A stretch of DNA of 64,000 bases, taken from Halococcus agarilyticus. GTDB taxonomy: Archaea; Halobacteriota; Halobacteria; Halobacteriales; Halococcaceae. The translations under genes and the position numbers were made by a program. Below, piece by piece: positions 1,430 to 8,617 of this stretch. The notes under the pieces are model-generated. The model was not told the DNA's origin, did not search any database, and worked only from the letters and a program-made list of their open reading frames with translations. Each line of letters starts with the position of its first letter. Within the stretch, counting starts at the first letter, position 1. The stretch lies in assembly GCF_000334895.1 (NCBI RefSeq), contig NZ_BAFM01000009.1, positions 1-64,000 on the forward strand, in the 5' to 3' direction.

Positions 1430-2116
1430 TCATCGAGTCACGGGGAACACGTCCGCGGGAAGTCCGTCGCGAACCCCGCTGGCAACGTCCTCGGGAGTCG
1501 TGAGATCGAACGACGACAGCGTGTGGACCGGCACGTCGGTCATCCGTTCGAGTTCCGCTTGATTCGTCCGCTCGGCGACGGTCTCGCTCGTGTACTCGTT
1601 CAGAACGACGGCGTGCGTTTCGACGCCGTGCGCCGCGAGCCCCTCGACCGTGAGCGCGGTGTGATTCAGTGTGCCGAGCCCGGAGCGGGCGACCACCACC
1701 GCAGGGAGTTCGAGATCGGCGACGAGATCGATCACTTCCCGATCGCCGGCGAGCGGCACCCGAACCCCGCCGACGCCTTCGAGCACCCCGACTTCGCTCG
1801 CGGCGAGCGCCCGCTCGCATCCCTCACGGATCGTCACATACGAGAGCTCCGTCCCGACCCGCTCGGCGGCGACGCGCGGCGCGAGCGGCGGTTCGAGCCG
1901 TTCGATGCAGGTCGCAGCATCGCCGGCCCTACACGCTTCGGCAACGAACCCCGCATCGTCGTCCGGCGGATAGCCGGTCTGGACCGGCTTGACCGCACGA
2001 GCATCGATACCCTCCTCGCGGAGCCAGGCGACGAGCCCGGCGGTCACGACCGTCTTTCCGACGCTCGTATCGGTCCCGACGACCGCGAACGCGTCCCCGC
2101 CGTGTGTTTCACTCAT
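1430..2116 (-). CDS. bioD: ATP-dependent dethiobiotin synthetase
   Basis: Closes the ureido ring of dethiobiotin from 7,8-diaminopelargonate (or its carbamate), CO2 and ATP. The 228-residue protein has the P-loop GTDTSVGKT at 14-22, KPVQTG at 43-48 and a GVGGVRVP segment near 115-120, all typical of BioD. It is the last gene of the minus-strand biotin operon, and its ATG overlaps the end of bioF by 8 nt, implying coupled translation. The frame stays open well upstream inside bioF, but homology begins at this ATG. Because bioA is missing from the operon, the substrate could be the carbamate released by BioU; that part is inference. Confidence 0.93.
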   Translation of the reverse strand: MSETHGGDAFAVVGTDTSVGKTVVTAGLVAWLREEGIDARAVKPVQTGYPPDDDAGFVAEACRAGDAATCIERLEPPLAPRVAAERVGTELSYVTIREGCERALAASEVGVLEGVGGVRVPLAGDREVIDLVADLELPAVVVARSGLGTLNHTALTVEGLAAHGVETHAVVLNEYTSETVAERTNQAELERMTDVPVHTLSSFDLTTPEDVASGVRDGLPADVFPVTR

Positions 2117-3371
2117 CGAGCACTCCCACGGCACGCCCTGCTTCGTGGAACGCCGCCAGGCACCGATCGATCTCGGCGTCGGTGTGGGTCGCCATCGGCG
2201 CGACCCGGATCCGACTCGTTCCCTCGGGCACCGTCGGCGGCCGGATCGCGGGCGCGACGATCCCGCGGTCGGTGAGCGCTTCCCCAAGTGCCACCGCATC
2301 GGCACGATCGCCGACGAGCACCGGGAGGATCTGAGTCTCGCCGAGCACGCGATATCCCATCCCTTCGAGTCCCTCGCGAAGGCGCTCGACGACCGTCCAG
2401 AGTCGTTCGCGACGATCGCCCTCACGAGCAACGGCGAGTGCCTCGCGTGCCGCACCCGCCGCCGGCGGCGCGAGTCCGGTCGAGAACACGAACGAGCGCG
2501 CGGCGTTCGCGAGGTGTTCGACGAGCGCCTCGTTTCCGGCGACGTACCCGCCCTGACTCGCCAGCGCCTTCGAGAGCGTCCCCATCTGGACCTGCACTCG
2601 ATCTCCGAGTTCCTCGCGCCCGACGATTCCCGCGCCATCGGCGTAGAGTCCGGTAGCGTGAGCCTCGTCCGCCATCACCCACGCGCCGTGGCGCTCGGCG
2701 ACGTCGCAGATCGCCGCGAGCGGGGCGACATCACCGTCCATGCTGAACACCGAGTCGGTCACGACGAGCCACGATTCGCCCGCGTCCGCCTGCTCGCGCC
2801 GTTCCGCCATCGCCGCGGCGAGCGCTTCGGCGTCCGCGTGATCGTAGACCACCGTCTCCGCGCGTGCGAGCCGACAGCCGTCCACGATGCTCGCGTGGTT
2901 CAGCTCGTCGGAGAAGATCACGTCGGGGGCGAGCGCGGCGATCGTACCGACGTTGGCGGCGTAGCCCGACGAGAAGACCAACGCGCGCTCGGTATCCTTC
3001 GTCCGGGCGAGGTCGCGTTCGAGCGCGCGGTGGATCGGTGTATTGCCGGTGACGAGCCGGCTCGCGCCCGCGCCGGTGCCGACCTCCTCGGCCGCCGTCG
3101 CGGCCGCCCGCTGGACTCGCTCGTCGTCCGCCAATCCGAGGTAGTTGTTCGACGCCAGGATCACCTGGTCTTCGCCCTCGAAGTTCGGGATTCCATCATC
3201 TGGATCGGCGACCACGCGAGCCCGCGCCGCGACCCGCTCGATCGGCGCGAGATCGCGCCGCAGGCCCCGTTGTTCGCGTGCCTTGAGGCGCTCTCGGAGG
3301 GCGAAGCTGTGTCCCGAATCCTCGTGGCCGCCCTCGACGAGCTCCGTCCGGCTCGCGTCGCGTTCTGCCAT
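2109..3371 (-). CDS. bioF: 8-amino-7-oxononanoate synthase
   Basis: PLP enzyme that condenses pimeloyl thioester with L-alanine to give 8-amino-7-oxononanoate, the first step of biotin ring assembly. The 420-residue protein shows the alpha-oxoamine synthase features: SNNYLGLA near 74-81, DEAHATG at 235-241 (Asp to the PLP ring nitrogen) and the Schiff-base lysine in GTLSKALASQGG (K268). It carries about 40 extra hydrophilic residues at the N-terminus compared with Escherichia coli BioF. It starts one base into the stop region of the upstream dehydrogenase and overlaps bioD at its own end, so the three genes form a tight operon. Confidence 0.94.
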   Translation of the reverse strand: MAERDASRTELVEGGHEDSGHSFALRERLKAREQRGLRRDLAPIERVAARARVVADPDDGIPNFEGEDQVILASNNYLGLADDERVQRAAATAAEEVGTGAGASRLVTGNTPIHRALERDLARTKDTERALVFSSGYAANVGTIAALAPDVIFSDELNHASIVDGCRLARAETVVYDHADAEALAAAMAERREQADAGESWLVVTDSVFSMDGDVAPLAAICDVAERHGAWVMADEAHATGLYADGAGIVGREELGDRVQVQMGTLSKALASQGGYVAGNEALVEHLANAARSFVFSTGLAPPAAGAAREALAVAREGDRRERLWTVVERLREGLEGMGYRVLGETQILPVLVGDRADAVALGEALTDRGIVAPAIRPPTVPEGTSRIRVAPMATHTDAEIDRCLAAFHEAGRAVGVLDE

Positions 3372-4483
3372 CAGAAGCCTGGCATCAGGTCGGCGGGGCC
3401 GAACACGCCGTACTCGCCCGCACGATTGCGCCGCACGCCCGCCTTCAGGTAGCCGAGCGCGGGGCCGTTGACGTTCGCCGCCATACTGGTCTCGTCGCCC
3501 AATTCGAAGGTGTTGGTCGCGCGCTCGCCGTCGAACGTCCGGCCAGTCACGTCGACGGTCGTGGTCGTGGGTTTCTCGTCGTTGCGCACGTCGAGCACCC
3601 CACCGACGGTCACGTCTTCGGCATCACAGATGCCCGCCCGCTCCAGCAACACGTCGTCGGCGTGTTCCATGTCCTCGAACTCGATGACGCCGTCGTGCTC
3701 GTCCACGATCGCCTCGATTTCGTCGTCCGAGAGGTCGCGCGCGCTCTCGATGTCGAAGCCAGGCAGGTGCGCGATGTCCTCCCGAACGGTCCCGCGATTG
3801 TCCTCGTAGCCCGACTTCAGCCCGACGCCCCAGTGGATGTCGACTGCCTCGACCTCGACGAACGACTGTGCGGCGAGCGCCGCCGCACCGGTCAGGAAGC
3901 CTGGCGTCGCGCCCGCACCGCAGACGAACGTGATTCCCGACTCCTCGAAGACGTCGGCGCGCTCGTCCAACAGCCCGATCACCCGCGAGCGCTTCAGGAC
4001 ATCGACGAGCACGCCCTCGTAGTCCGCATCGGCGAACTCCGCTGCAACCTCGGGGATGAAGTCGTGTTCTAAGCTCGGCAGCGCGATCAGTACCGCATCC
4101 ACCGCGTCGCTCGCGGCGATGGTGTCCTCGATGGGCGTCTCTGTGGGTCGGGCTTGCGCCGACGCGACCACGCCCGCCTGCTCGCCGTGCTGTTTGACCG
4201 CCCCGCCGCCATCCGCCCGCGGCTCGCGGCTCCCGTCGGTCGCCGCTCGCCCGTCCGCGGCCTCCCGTCGGTCGGCCGCGCTCGCCACGTTCCCTTCCGT
4301 CGCGGCGAGGAGTTCGTCCACGTCGAGACCCTCGTGATCGACCGCGATGCCGTGGCGATCACACGCCGCCACGGGCGTCAGCCCCTGCTTGGCCTGCGAG
4401 ACTTCGAGTGCTCGCCGCCCGATCCCGCCCGTGCCGAGTACTGCGAAGCTGATGTCGTCCATAGTGGTGTCTCCGTCCGCCAT
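3371..4483 (-). CDS. bioU: NAD(P)-binding dehydrogenase of the biotin operon, probable BioU
   Basis: The 370-residue protein begins with a Rossmann motif (FAVLGTGGIGRRALE, about 13-27) and resembles homoserine/saccharopine-type dehydrogenases. It lies between bioB (2 nt gap) and bioF (1 nt overlap). No bioA aminotransferase is present. In cyanobacteria the missing BioA step is done by BioU, a single-turnover NAD(P)H dehydrogenase that donates its own lysine amino group (Lys124 in Synechocystis) to 8-amino-7-oxononanoate. K164 in VLVDVLKRSR is my candidate for that lysine: residues about 66-108 look like a low-complexity insertion, and removing it would place K164 near 124. The ATG at 4462 is an alternative start. 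The assignment rests on context, fold and this lysine, not on an alignment. Confidence 0.72.
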   Translation of the reverse strand: MADGDTTMDDISFAVLGTGGIGRRALEVSQAKQGLTPVAACDRHGIAVDHEGLDVDELLAATEGNVASAADRREAADGRAATDGSREPRADGGGAVKQHGEQAGVVASAQARPTETPIEDTIAASDAVDAVLIALPSLEHDFIPEVAAEFADADYEGVLVDVLKRSRVIGLLDERADVFEESGITFVCGAGATPGFLTGAAALAAQSFVEVEAVDIHWGVGLKSGYEDNRGTVREDIAHLPGFDIESARDLSDDEIEAIVDEHDGVIEFEDMEHADDVLLERAGICDAEDVTVGGVLDVRNDEKPTTTTVDVTGRTFDGERATNTFELGDETSMAANVNGPALGYLKAGVRRNRAGEYGVFGPADLMPGF

Positions 4484-4485
4484 CG

Positions 4486-5628
4486 TCAGTCGTCACTCGC
4501 GTTGCTCGTGGCCGTCCCCGCCGCCGTCTCGATCGGCGGGTCCGACGGGTCGTCCCGTCCGCGCGCTTTCACCGCTGCCGGATCGAACTCGTTCGTCTCC
4601 ATGTTCGGCTCCAGACCGGCGCGCTCGATCGTCTCGATGTCCGCACCGGGTGACTGGCCGGAAGTCGTGAGGTAATCGCCAGTGAGCACGCCGTCCGCAC
4701 CCGCCTCGAAGGGCAGGTGTTGCTCGTCGTCCCGGAGGTTGACCTCGCGTCCGCCGGTCAATCTGACTCGTGCCTCGGGGTGGAGCAACCGGTAGACCGC
4801 GATCGTCTCGATCAACTCCGCCGTCGAGATGGCGGCGTGGTCGGCGTCGCCGAGCGGCGTGCCTTCGACCGGGTTCAGGACGTTCACCGGTAGCGAGGAC
4901 ACCCCGATCTCCTGCAACTCGATCGCGGCCTCGACTCGATCCGCGGGCGTCTCGCCCATCCCGAGGATCACGCCGGCACAGAGGTCCATCCCGGCCTCCT
5001 TGGCGACCCGCAGGGTGTGCAGCCGGTCCTCGAAGTCGTGCGTGGAGACGATCTCGTCGAAGTATCGCCGGGAGGTCTCGATGTTGTGATTGTAGTGGTT
5101 CAGCCCCTCTTCGACGAGGATCGCGGCCTCCTCTTCGGTGAGGAGGCCGAGCGAGGCGTCGGCCTCGACATCGGTCTCGTCGCGCACGAGCCGAATGGCC
5201 TCGATGACCTCTGCCCACTCCTCGGGGCGGCGCTCCTTCGAGACACCCTTCTCCGCGACCACGATCCCGAAGCGCTGTGCGCCGTCGCGTTCGGCACGCT
5301 TCGCAGCCGCGAGGATCTCTTGGGGGTCGAGGAAGCCGTAGGTGTCGATTCCCGTGTCGAAGTGGACTGACTGCGCACAGAACCCACAGTCCTCGGCACA
5401 GTCGCCCGCCTTCGCGTTCACGATCGAGCACGCGTCGACCGTGCCGTCGCCGAACGCCGCTCGGACGAAATCGGCGGCCGTCGCGAGCTCCTCGACCGGC
5501 TGAGCGAGGAGCGCGAGGCCGTCCGTCCGGTCGAGGCGCTCGCCGTCGAGCACGCGCCCCACCGCGCCGTCGATCGTCGCGTTTCCAGTCTCGTAAACCA
5601 CAGAGAAGTCAACAGTTGACGGGATCAT
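4486..5628 (-). CDS. bioB: Biotin synthase (radical SAM)
   Basis: Inserts sulfur into dethiobiotin to make biotin. The 380-residue protein has the radical-SAM cluster motif CAEDCGFC (C77, C81, C84) and the BioB segments YNHNIETS and GLNHYNHN, followed by GVILGMGE and LPVNVLNPVEGTPL. The C-terminal ~50 residues are a haloarchaeal acidic extension. The ATG at 5628 (MIPSTVDFS) is chosen; the open frame continues to 5712 but that part is not BioB-like and runs into the hisH promoter. This is the first gene of bioB-bioU-bioF-bioD. It is divergent from hisH, with 82 bp between starts. I see no clear BirA-type operator. Confidence 0.93.
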   Translation of the reverse strand: MIPSTVDFSVVYETGNATIDGAVGRVLDGERLDRTDGLALLAQPVEELATAADFVRAAFGDGTVDACSIVNAKAGDCAEDCGFCAQSVHFDTGIDTYGFLDPQEILAAAKRAERDGAQRFGIVVAEKGVSKERRPEEWAEVIEAIRLVRDETDVEADASLGLLTEEEAAILVEEGLNHYNHNIETSRRYFDEIVSTHDFEDRLHTLRVAKEAGMDLCAGVILGMGETPADRVEAAIELQEIGVSSLPVNVLNPVEGTPLGDADHAAISTAELIETIAVYRLLHPEARVRLTGGREVNLRDDEQHLPFEAGADGVLTGDYLTTSGQSPGADIETIERAGLEPNMETNEFDPAAVKARGRDDPSDPPIETAAGTATSNASDD

Positions 5629-5710: not shown

Positions 5711-6367
5711 ATGAGCGAAGCGCAGACCCAGCGTACCGCGGCGGCGTCAGTGGTCGTGGTCGACTACGGTCTCGGCAACCTCCGGAGTGCGACCCGCGGC
5801 CTCGAACGCGCGGGGGCCACAGTCGAGATCACCGACGACCCTGCCGCGTTCGACGCGGCGGACGGGATCGTGCTGCCTGGCGTCGGCGCGTTCCGCGAGG
5901 GCGTCGAGAACGCCGGCCCCTACCGCGAGGCGCTGCTCGACGCCGCCGACGCGGGGACGCCGGTGTTCGGCATCTGTCTCGGGATGCAGATGCTCCTCAC
6001 GACGAGCGAGGAGGCCGAACGCGCTGGCGAGGGCGACGTCGAGGGACTCGATCTGATCCCCGGCCGGAACGTCCGCTTTACCGGCGATCGGAAAGTCCCT
6101 CACATGGGCTGGAACGAGCTCACGGTCGAGCGCGATCACCCGCTCGTCGAGGGAGTAGATGGGGAGTACGCCTACTTCGTCCACTCCTACTACGCCGAGC
6201 CCGACGACGGAAACGCGGTCGTCGCCCGCACGGAGTACGGCGTCGACTTCCCGTCCGTCGTGGCCGACGACTCCGGGACCGTCTTCGGCACGCAGTTCCA
6301 CCCCGAGAAGAGCGGCGAGACCGGGCTGCGGATCCTGCGGAACTTCGTCGATCTCTGTGCCGACTGA
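5711..6367 (+). CDS. hisH: Imidazole glycerol phosphate synthase, glutaminase subunit
   Basis: Glutamine amidotransferase subunit that supplies ammonia to HisF for imidazole glycerol phosphate formation in histidine biosynthesis. The 218-residue protein has DYGLGNLRS at the start, PGVGAF, the nucleophile in GICLGMQ (C89) and the His-Glu dyad in TQFHPEKSG. The start at 5711 has a TATA-like element (GACTTAGCC, about 5682-5690) 25-27 nt upstream. hisF and the other his genes are not in this window, as is usual for haloarchaea, where his genes are scattered. The last ~100 bp recur as a remnant at 7484-7577. Confidence 0.94.
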   Translation: MSEAQTQRTAAASVVVVDYGLGNLRSATRGLERAGATVEITDDPAAFDAADGIVLPGVGAFREGVENAGPYREALLDAADAGTPVFGICLGMQMLLTTSEEAERAGEGDVEGLDLIPGRNVRFTGDRKVPHMGWNELTVERDHPLVEGVDGEYAYFVHSYYAEPDDGNAVVARTEYGVDFPSVVADDSGTVFGTQFHPEKSGETGLRILRNFVDLCAD

Positions 6368-7483
6368 GCGATCCACGCCATCGATCCGCGGCCGCTGCTC
6401 AGGGGTTCCGAACTCCCTCGCATGCAGAAGAACCTTTGCGAATGCGCATCGACGGGCGGAGTATGGCAGAGAGCAGATCCGTCGTGATGGCCGCCCTCAT
6501 CGCCAACGGCGCGATCGCCGTCATGAAGTTCATCGGGTTCCTCCTCACCGGGAGCGCGGCGATGCTATCCGAGACCTACCAGTCGGTTTCGGATACGGGC
6601 AATCAGATCTTTCTCCTCATCGGCATCCGCTACTCGAAACGGAGCGCCGACCGCACCCATCCCTTCGGCTACGGCAAGTCACAGTTCTTCTACAGCTTCC
6701 TCGTGTCGGTGCTGCTGTTCGGCGTCGCGGGGATCGCGAGCGTACGGAAGGGCTACGGAGCGATCACCGGCGAGAGCACCTTTCACGTCAGCAACGCCAC
6801 GCTCCCGGTGATCGGCGTGACGCTCTCGGGTGCGGTGATCAGCTACATCGTTCTGTCGCTCGCGATCGTCTTCGAACTGTGGGCGCTCAAGAAGGCCTAC
6901 GCCGGGATGCAGGCCCAGATCGACGAACACGACTGGAGCGGACTCCGCGAGGCGTTCCGGAAGACCAGCGACGTGACCACGCTGACGGCACTGATCGAGG
7001 ACTCGCTCGCGCTCGCGGCGGCGGCGATCGGAATGGCCGGTATCTACCTGACCGAGCAGACGGGCAACGTGCTCTACGACGGGATCGCCGCCTTCGTGAT
7101 CGGGCTGCTGCTGATGGGCTTTGCGGCTGCGCTCGCGTGGCAGAACAAGCGCCTGCTGCTCGGCGAGAGCCTCCCGGCCGACGAGGAGCGCCGCCTGCGC
7201 GACGTGATCGCCGACCACGACGGCGTGAGTGGAGTAGTCGACTTCCGGTCGGTCTACTTTGGCCCCGAGGAGATCATCGTGACTGCCGACGTCACCTTCG
7301 AATCCGGGTTCGACACCGGCGAGATCGACGACCGGATCACCGCCATCAAGAAGGCGATCAGGGAGGCCGAGCCCCAGGTGCGCAACACGTACATCGAACC
7401 CGAGGCGTAATCCCGTTTAGAACCACTTCCGTCGTGGGATACGACCCCCTTTCGACTGAACCCGCTCTAACACCAGCCACTAG
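6262..7483 (+). repeat. Tandem duplication, unit 1 (hisH 3' end + CDF + helicase 5' flank)
   Basis: This 1222-bp segment is repeated once directly downstream (7484-8703). It starts inside hisH at GGCCGACGA (6262-6270) and ends with a diverged copy of the DNA just upstream of the helicase start (GAACCCGCTC at 7458-7467, compared with the same word before 8702). Coding identity is clear by eye over the whole CDF gene. Confidence 0.9.
6463..7410 (+). CDS. Cation diffusion facilitator transporter, copy 1
   Basis: Membrane exporter of divalent metal ions (Zn, Mn, Co or Fe), probably in exchange for protons. The 315-residue protein has about six transmembrane segments, the SDTGNQIFLLIG motif of TM2, the HPFGYGK loop and a C-terminal cytoplasmic domain ending in VRNTYIEPEA. 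At the TM2 metal site the first ligand position is Gln (QSVSDTGN), whereas copy 2 has His (HSISDTGN). The ATG at 6463 is chosen because copy 2 shares it together with the same upstream block (ATGCAGAAGAACCTTTGCG, which contains the likely TATA region). Specificity cannot be read from the sequence. Confidence 0.9.
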   Translation: MAESRSVVMAALIANGAIAVMKFIGFLLTGSAAMLSETYQSVSDTGNQIFLLIGIRYSKRSADRTHPFGYGKSQFFYSFLVSVLLFGVAGIASVRKGYGAITGESTFHVSNATLPVIGVTLSGAVISYIVLSLAIVFELWALKKAYAGMQAQIDEHDWSGLREAFRKTSDVTTLTALIEDSLALAAAAIGMAGIYLTEQTGNVLYDGIAAFVIGLLLMGFAAALAWQNKRLLLGESLPADEERRLRDVIADHDGVSGVVDFRSVYFGPEEIIVTADVTFESGFDTGEIDDRITAIKKAIREAEPQVRNTYIEPEA

Positions 7484-7577: not shown

Positions 7578-7672
7578 GCGACTCACGCCGTCGATCGACC
7601 GATCGCCGTCTTGGACTTCGAGTCGCTTCGTATGCAGAAGAACCTTTGCGGGTTCGCTTCCACGGACGGAGT

Positions 7673-8617
7673 ATGGCTGGAAACAGGTCCGTCGTGATCG
7701 CCGCCCTGATCGCCAACGGCGCGATCGCGATTCTCAAGTTCGCTGGCTTTCTCCTCACCGGAAGCGCGGCGATGCTCTCGGAGACCTACCACTCGATCTC
7801 CGATACGGGCAATCAGATCTTCCTCCTCATCGGGATCCGGTACGGCGGCAAGGAGGCCAGCCGTGACCATCCCTTTGGCTACGGGAAGGCACAGTTCTTC
7901 TACAGCTTCCTCGTGAGCGTCCTCCTCTTCGGGATCGCGGGCTGGGAGAGCGCGAAACACGGCTACAACGCCATCGTGAACCCCCACGCCGCGGAGGTCG
8001 GCCAGGCGTCGCTCCCCGTAATCGGCTCCTTTCCCGGCGTTTGGGTCAACTACGTGGTGCTCGTCGGCGCGATCGTCTTCGAGAGCTACGCGCTCAAGAA
8101 GGCCAACGACGAAATGAGCCGCCAGATCGACGAACACGGCTGGAGCGGGTACCGCGAGGCCTTCCGGAAGACCAGCGACGTGACCACGCTGACCGCGCTG
8201 ACCGAGGACACGATCGCCATGGCGGGTGCGGGGATCGCGCTGTTCGGGGTGTTTCTCAGCCGATACACCGGCAACCCGCTCTACGACGCGGTGGCTGCAC
8301 TCCTGATCGGCCTCATGCTGATGGGGTTTGCGATCGCGCTCGCGTGGGAGAACAAGCGTCTGCTGCTCGGCGAGAGCCTGCCGGCCGACGAGGAACGCAA
8401 ACTCCGCGAGGTGGTCGCTGGCTGGGATGGCGTCGAAGAAATCGTCGACTTCCGGACCGTCTACTTCGGCCCCGAGCAGCTCCTCGTGACTGCCGATGTC
8501 GCGCTCGACGCGGGCCTCGAAACCGAGGACATCGACGACTACATCTCCGAGATCGAGAACGCGCTGATGGAAACGCAACCGCAGATCCGGAAGGTCTACA
8601 TCGAACCCGAGGTCTGA
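7673..8617 (+). CDS. Cation diffusion facilitator transporter, copy 2
   Basis: Paralogue of the preceding transporter: 314 residues, same topology, ending IRKVYIEPEV. It keeps the canonical HxxxD-type site in TM2 (HSISDTGN) and the HPFGYGK loop, so of the two copies it looks closer to a standard CDF zinc/manganese exporter. The TM5 region differs (LTALTEDTIAMAG here, LTALIEDSLALAA in copy 1), another place where metal ligands sit. The ATG at 7673 follows the same TTTGCG-containing block as copy 1. An upstream in-frame TTG (7646) is not conserved as coding and was ignored. Confidence 0.9.
   Translation: MAGNRSVVIAALIANGAIAILKFAGFLLTGSAAMLSETYHSISDTGNQIFLLIGIRYGGKEASRDHPFGYGKAQFFYSFLVSVLLFGIAGWESAKHGYNAIVNPHAAEVGQASLPVIGSFPGVWVNYVVLVGAIVFESYALKKANDEMSRQIDEHGWSGYREAFRKTSDVTTLTALTEDTIAMAGAGIALFGVFLSRYTGNPLYDAVAALLIGLMLMGFAIALAWENKRLLLGESLPADEERKLREVVAGWDGVEEIVDFRTVYFGPEQLLVTADVALDAGLETEDIDDYISEIENALMETQPQIRKVYIEPEV

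Follow-up and report, generated by a model that had tools for sequence, protein, structure and literature searches.

The haloarchaeon Halococcus agarilyticus carries a four-gene biotin operon within the stretch analysed here (contig NZ_BAFM01000009.1, positions 1–64,000; 64,000 nt, hereafter the window). The second gene of the operon encodes a 370 aa Rossmann-fold dehydrogenase that is probably a haloarchaeal BioU. All four reading frames are intact and lie on the minus strand in the order bioB–bioU–bioF–bioD. The features, in window coordinates, are as follows.

4486–5628, minus strand: bioB, biotin synthase (TIGR00433; Radical_SAM and BATS domains).
3371–4483, minus strand: bioU homologue, 370 aa (PDB phmmer, fold match and alignment to Slr0355).
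4181–4294, minus strand: codons 64–101, a disordered haloarchaeal insertion in the N-terminal Rossmann domain (model confidence and homologue lengths).
3992–3994, minus strand: codon of K164, the counterpart of the sacrificial Lys124 of Synechocystis BioU (alignments).
3662–3664, minus strand: codon of H274, the counterpart of His233 of Synechocystis BioU (DMEHADD motif).
2109–3371, minus strand: bioF, 8-amino-7-oxononanoate synthase (best match TIGR00858).
1430–2116, minus strand: bioD, dethiobiotin synthase, 228 aa (TIGR00347).

The bioB open reading frame extends back to position 5712, with the ATG at 5628 as its likely start. A preliminary description of this DNA had claimed tight packing, with gaps of 2 nt or less or overlaps, and the junctions bear this out: bioB and bioU are separated by 2 nt (TGA CG ATG), bioU and bioF overlap by 1 nt (TGATG), and bioF and bioD overlap by 8 nt. 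The same description placed the operon at 3371–5628, an interval that holds bioB and bioU and needs extension to 1430–3371 for bioF and bioD. When scored against curated NCBIfam equivalog cut-offs, bioB (338 bits versus 225, TIGR00433) and bioD (113 bits versus 83, TIGR00347) passed, and bioF fell ~13 bits short (414 versus 426, TIGR00858) with bioF still its best match. No class-III aminotransferase gene is present inside the operon.

The identity of the dehydrogenase was addressed by sequence and by structure. The sole matches in a phmmer search of the PDB were to Slr0355, the BioU of Synechocystis sp. PCC 6803 (E=3e-87, residues 9–67 and 95–370), and the aligned proteins are 46% identical. 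An AlphaFold model of the protein (predicted local distance difference test score, pLDDT, 80; predicted template modelling score, pTM, 0.80) had the five BioU structures 6itd, 6k38, 6k37, 6k36 and 6ir4 as its five top fold matches in the PDB, with template modelling (TM) scores, normalised by target, of 0.90–0.91 and 41–42% identity in that search. Amino-acid dehydrogenases followed at a TM score of ~0.5. The only NCBIfam match was the BioU model NF047886 (E=3e-103, 345 bits), and Pfam returned a sub-threshold dehydrogenase match. RefSeq labels the BioU homologue genes ‘transcriptional regulator’, a label against which the lack of any Pfam DNA-binding domain in the 370 aa protein speaks. Alignment to the Synechocystis enzyme and modelling thus recovered full-length homology and the BioU fold (TM score up to 0.91); with the Slr0355-only PDB matches and the conserved residues described below, they support the earlier assignment of the dehydrogenase as BioU.

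Two residues of Slr0355 have counterparts in the Halococcus protein. The segment GVLVDVLKRSR aligns with GVLVDALKRTS of wild-type BioU (6ir4) and with GVLVDALARTS of the K124A mutant (6itd), which places the query lysine, residue 164, opposite Lys124 and agrees with the proposal of K164 as the sacrificial position. H274 aligns with the histidine that is alanine in the H233A mutant (6k38). Both residues are invariant across all 113 distinct homologues from haloarchaea and all 82 homologues from named genomes or plasmids, a set that overlaps the first in part, and no member lacking the lysine was seen among these 113 and 82 sequences. We do not rely on the possibility that a Haloferax BioU carries alanine at this position and uses free lysine: a homologue occurs in only 3 of the 15 Haloferax genomes, each time with lysine. 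Further blocks common to the Halococcus protein and Slr0355 are the GxGGxG turn, GATPG, REDIAH, DMEHAD and TSMAANV/GPA. An insertion had been put at about residues 66–108; in the model, the low-confidence stretch (pLDDT <50) covers residues 64–101. The segment matching residues 58–116 varies from 23 to 99 aa among haloarchaeal homologues, versus 22 in Slr0355, and contains a nearly invariant Asp-Gly-Gly (DGG). We take the insertion to be a flexible haloarchaeal loop.

The enzyme that BioU would replace, BioA, was sought in the whole genome, and none was found over the TIGR00508 cut-off. The Halococcus agarilyticus genome encodes six class-III aminotransferases, the best of which reaches 223 bits with the bioA model against a cut-off of 405. 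All six fit other families better: acetylornithine/LysJ-like, diaminobutyrate, PRK06062-like and acetylornithine-like aminotransferases, and two glutamate-1-semialdehyde aminomutases. Across 391 Halobacteria genomes, none carries a bioA over the curated cut-off, and six controls, including Escherichia coli, Bacillus subtilis and the archaeon Methanocaldococcus jannaschii, pass it. The two findings that the preliminary description had named as refuting its reading, a bioA elsewhere in the genome or a non-conserved counterpart of Lys124, were both looked for, and neither turned up.

BioU is inherited together with the rest of the pathway, and the BioU reading extends beyond this one archaeon to the class Halobacteria. 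A strong BioU match was found in 150 of the 391 genomes, bioB in 178 and bioF in 167. Every one of the 150 carries both bioB and bioF, and six genomes have both genes but lack a strong BioU match (Fisher p ~4e-102 for co-occurrence of BioU with bioB plus bioF, not corrected for relatedness). The order bioB–bioU–bioF–bioD is kept in 88 of 100 homologous loci and in 74 of the 82 named or plasmid loci, and is therefore conserved far beyond chance. In a sample of 295 genomes from the phylum, 14 BioU matches were found at E ≤1e-15, all in the taxonomic order to which the window belongs, and the best 80 loci of a named-genome scan were all haloarchaeal. The whole operon also sits on large Haloferax larsenii and Haladaptatus plasmids (L202 and L203; PLSDB entries H1–H7), so that the unit is not confined to a single type of replicon; a search with Slr0355 for BioU on bacterial plasmids returned only these same seven haloarchaeal plasmids. 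One genome (G229) holds two BioU and two bioB copies on different contigs (L098 and L099, matching L237 and L218 of Halorientalis salina).

The loss of BioU is accompanied by that of bioD. A bioD over the cut-off was present in all six BioU-positive genomes checked and in none of the ten checked genomes without intact BioU. BioU relics survive in three of the six genomes that have bioB and bioF without a strong BioU match (G181, G214 and G312), and a further relic is kept in G100, where bioF is lost too. These relics (L150 in G181, L151 in G312, L149 in G100 and L046 in G214) lie beside or between bio genes that are still intact, no bioD there exceeds the cut-off, and they represent a pathway being dismantled. 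Two more loci, L182 (G033) and L184 (G241), are bioB–bioF pairs without bioU and likewise without a bioD over the cut-off. G264 has bioB, bioF and bioD, but frameshifts break its BioU into pieces, which may reflect recent decay or sequencing error. Most of the other BioU-less genomes that have bioB carry it alone, which fits salvage of dethiobiotin.

We conclude, with a probability of about 0.86, that the product of the gene at 3371–4483 is a haloarchaeal BioU: a Rossmann-fold dehydrogenase that takes over the step of the absent BioA and would be used once, through K164. The observed basis of this reading is homology, fold, the conserved lysine and His233 counterpart, the operon, the absence of bioA, and co-inheritance with bioB, bioF and bioD. 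Substrate, chemistry and single turnover we infer from homology, following the reaction sequence set out for BioU in PMC12915131. BioF would make 8-amino-7-oxononanoate, with whose ketone the epsilon-amino group of K164 would condense. NAD(P)H would then reduce the imine to a covalent enzyme–diaminononanoate conjugate, to which CO2 would be added as a carbamate. Oxidation of the C–N bond on the lysine side by NAD(P)+ would release diaminononanoate carbamate and leave allysine at residue 164, so that the enzyme would be dead after one turnover. BioU is predicted to stand in for BioA by converting 8-amino-7-oxononanoate to the carbamate of 7,8-diaminononanoate, after which BioD would close the ring and BioB would add sulphur. 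The invariance of K164 is as a suicide mechanism requires.

The alternative that survives best, itself unlikely, is that the homologue makes diaminononanoate non-suicidally: either K164 takes part and regains its amino group through re-amination of allysine, or the true donor is an outside amine, for example free lysine or ammonia. Nothing direct favours it. Single turnover has a cost, one 370 aa protein per biotin, and the other lysine/ornithine-type aminotransferases of the genome could in principle act on allysine. However, every homologue seen has the K164 lysine, the operon contains no conserved repair gene, and bioU codon usage may lean the other way. Over 86 loci, the fraction of NNY codons ending in C is 0.909 for bioU, 0.863 for bioB, 0.868 for bioF and 0.819 for bioD, and the bioU value is close to those of sucC and sucD. 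This mildly suggests strong expression across the 86 loci, by an index that is crude and non-specific; we give it little weight, because rfcL is equally high and, in the window itself, bioU does not exceed bioB. We consider it slightly less probable still that a suicide fold has turned catalytic in haloarchaea, with a cellular enzyme restoring K164 from allysine or an outside amine being used.

It is improbable that this organism salvages biotin, its operon being a decayed or non-functional remnant. In favour of such a scenario, the genome has no BioW, and bioU has gone from other haloarchaea, which retain bioB alone. The four intact frames, tight junctions and conserved key residues of the window argue for a working unit, and the first stage of the pathway is likewise unidentified in cyanobacteria, whose second stage is (nearly) always complete (PMC12903740). 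The idea that a divergent BioA elsewhere supplies diaminononanoate while the Rossmann protein does other work, such as regulation, can draw on the six class-III aminotransferases and the public ‘transcriptional regulator’ label, but is the least credible of all, given the bioA scores and better-fitting families of those six and a BioU fold along nearly the whole length of a protein with no DNA-binding domain.

Several points weigh against the assignment as a single-use BioU. The match of 345 bits is below the NF047886 equivalog cut-off of 600, which is a naming threshold and not a feature of the enzyme, and which appears to have been set for close cyanobacterial relatives. On this score we assign the protein to a BioU-family branch of haloarchaea that lies beyond NCBI’s narrow equivalog. 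The comparison rests on one characterised BioU, Slr0355, and we found no activity data for any archaeal BioU homologue. Finally, G033, G181, G214, G241 and G312 keep a close bioF with bioU decayed or vanished and no bioD over the cut-off, and bioF may thus have another use there.

The operon of the window is flanked upstream by a divergent hisH-like amidotransferase gene and downstream by a uracil-DNA glycosylase gene. Across the loci, no conserved extra gene, such as one for a repair enzyme or pimelate supply, stands beside the operon; the neighbours are lineage-limited and include rfcL, sucCD, an alpha/beta-hydrolase, and an ADP-forming acyl-CoA synthetase paired with a BioD-like DRTGG protein. 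The acyl-CoA synthetase and DRTGG protein occur near the operon in ~20 loci and sucCD in 12–20 loci; examples of one or the other arrangement are given below, in the coordinates of each locus.

L059, 10285–12387.
L131, 8870–10015.
L094, 1507–2739.
L109, 8393–9262.

These CoA ligases are possible sources of pimeloyl-CoA, or their position may instead reflect synteny within a lineage. An alpha/beta-hydrolase gene lies near the operon in L072 (7396–8313) and in 16 other loci, and is a possible BioH-like candidate, with synteny within one lineage again an explanation that may apply. Elsewhere in the window, two adjacent cation-efflux (CDF) transporter genes on the plus strand (6436–7410 and 7646–8617) are 66% identical and likely arose by tandem duplication.

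A 2018 survey of archaeal genomes recorded, among 31 from Halobacteria, bioF in 18, bioD in 14, bioB in 19, and bioA and bioW in none, and regarded the pathway as fragmentary (PMC6138646). Since the three other genes were present and bioA was missing from all 31, BioU would close the recorded gap. If BioU fills the bioA step, the part of biotin synthesis that starts from 8-amino-7-oxononanoate can be assigned to ~40% of the haloarchaea sampled. Papers on BioU (PMC12915131 and PMC12903740) speak of cyanobacteria, and we found no literature joining the lysine-donating BioU with haloarchaea, in a search that did not extend to the original description of BioU (Nat Chem Biol 2020), which may mention haloarchaeal homologues. 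Under the present reading, a metabolic enzyme that works only once, described until now for cyanobacteria, would also occur in a second domain of life, and the RefSeq label would be corrected. A clean genetic test becomes feasible in tractable haloarchaea, and two questions become concrete: what it costs to spend a protein on each vitamin molecule, and from where the pimeloyl thioester is drawn.

Among known systems, BioA and BioK, the class-III aminotransferases that act as 7,8-diaminononanoate synthases, serve the same pathway step as BioU, and are unrelated to it in fold and chemistry, being catalytic and dependent on pyridoxal 5′-phosphate. The next nearest folds are amino-acid dehydrogenases of the meso-diaminopimelate dehydrogenase type (TM score ~0.5, 11–17% identity), which are not known to have a sacrificial lysine. 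The rickettsial ‘BioU’ of Ehrlichia shares the name only: it is a methyl esterase with a Ser-Asp-His triad that acts before BioF, and is a trap for name-based annotation. The closest counterpart is BioU of Synechocystis sp. PCC 6803 (Slr0355), which the Halococcus protein resembles in fold, in sequence (46% identity), in Lys124 and His233, and in the GATPG, REDIAH, DMEHAD and TSMAANV blocks. Unlike Slr0355, the Halococcus protein is archaeal, carries the insertion at residues 64–101, is encoded inside a bioB–bioU–bioF–bioD operon and scores below the NF047886 cut-off. It represents a new branch, in archaea, of a known kind of enzyme rather than a new kind.

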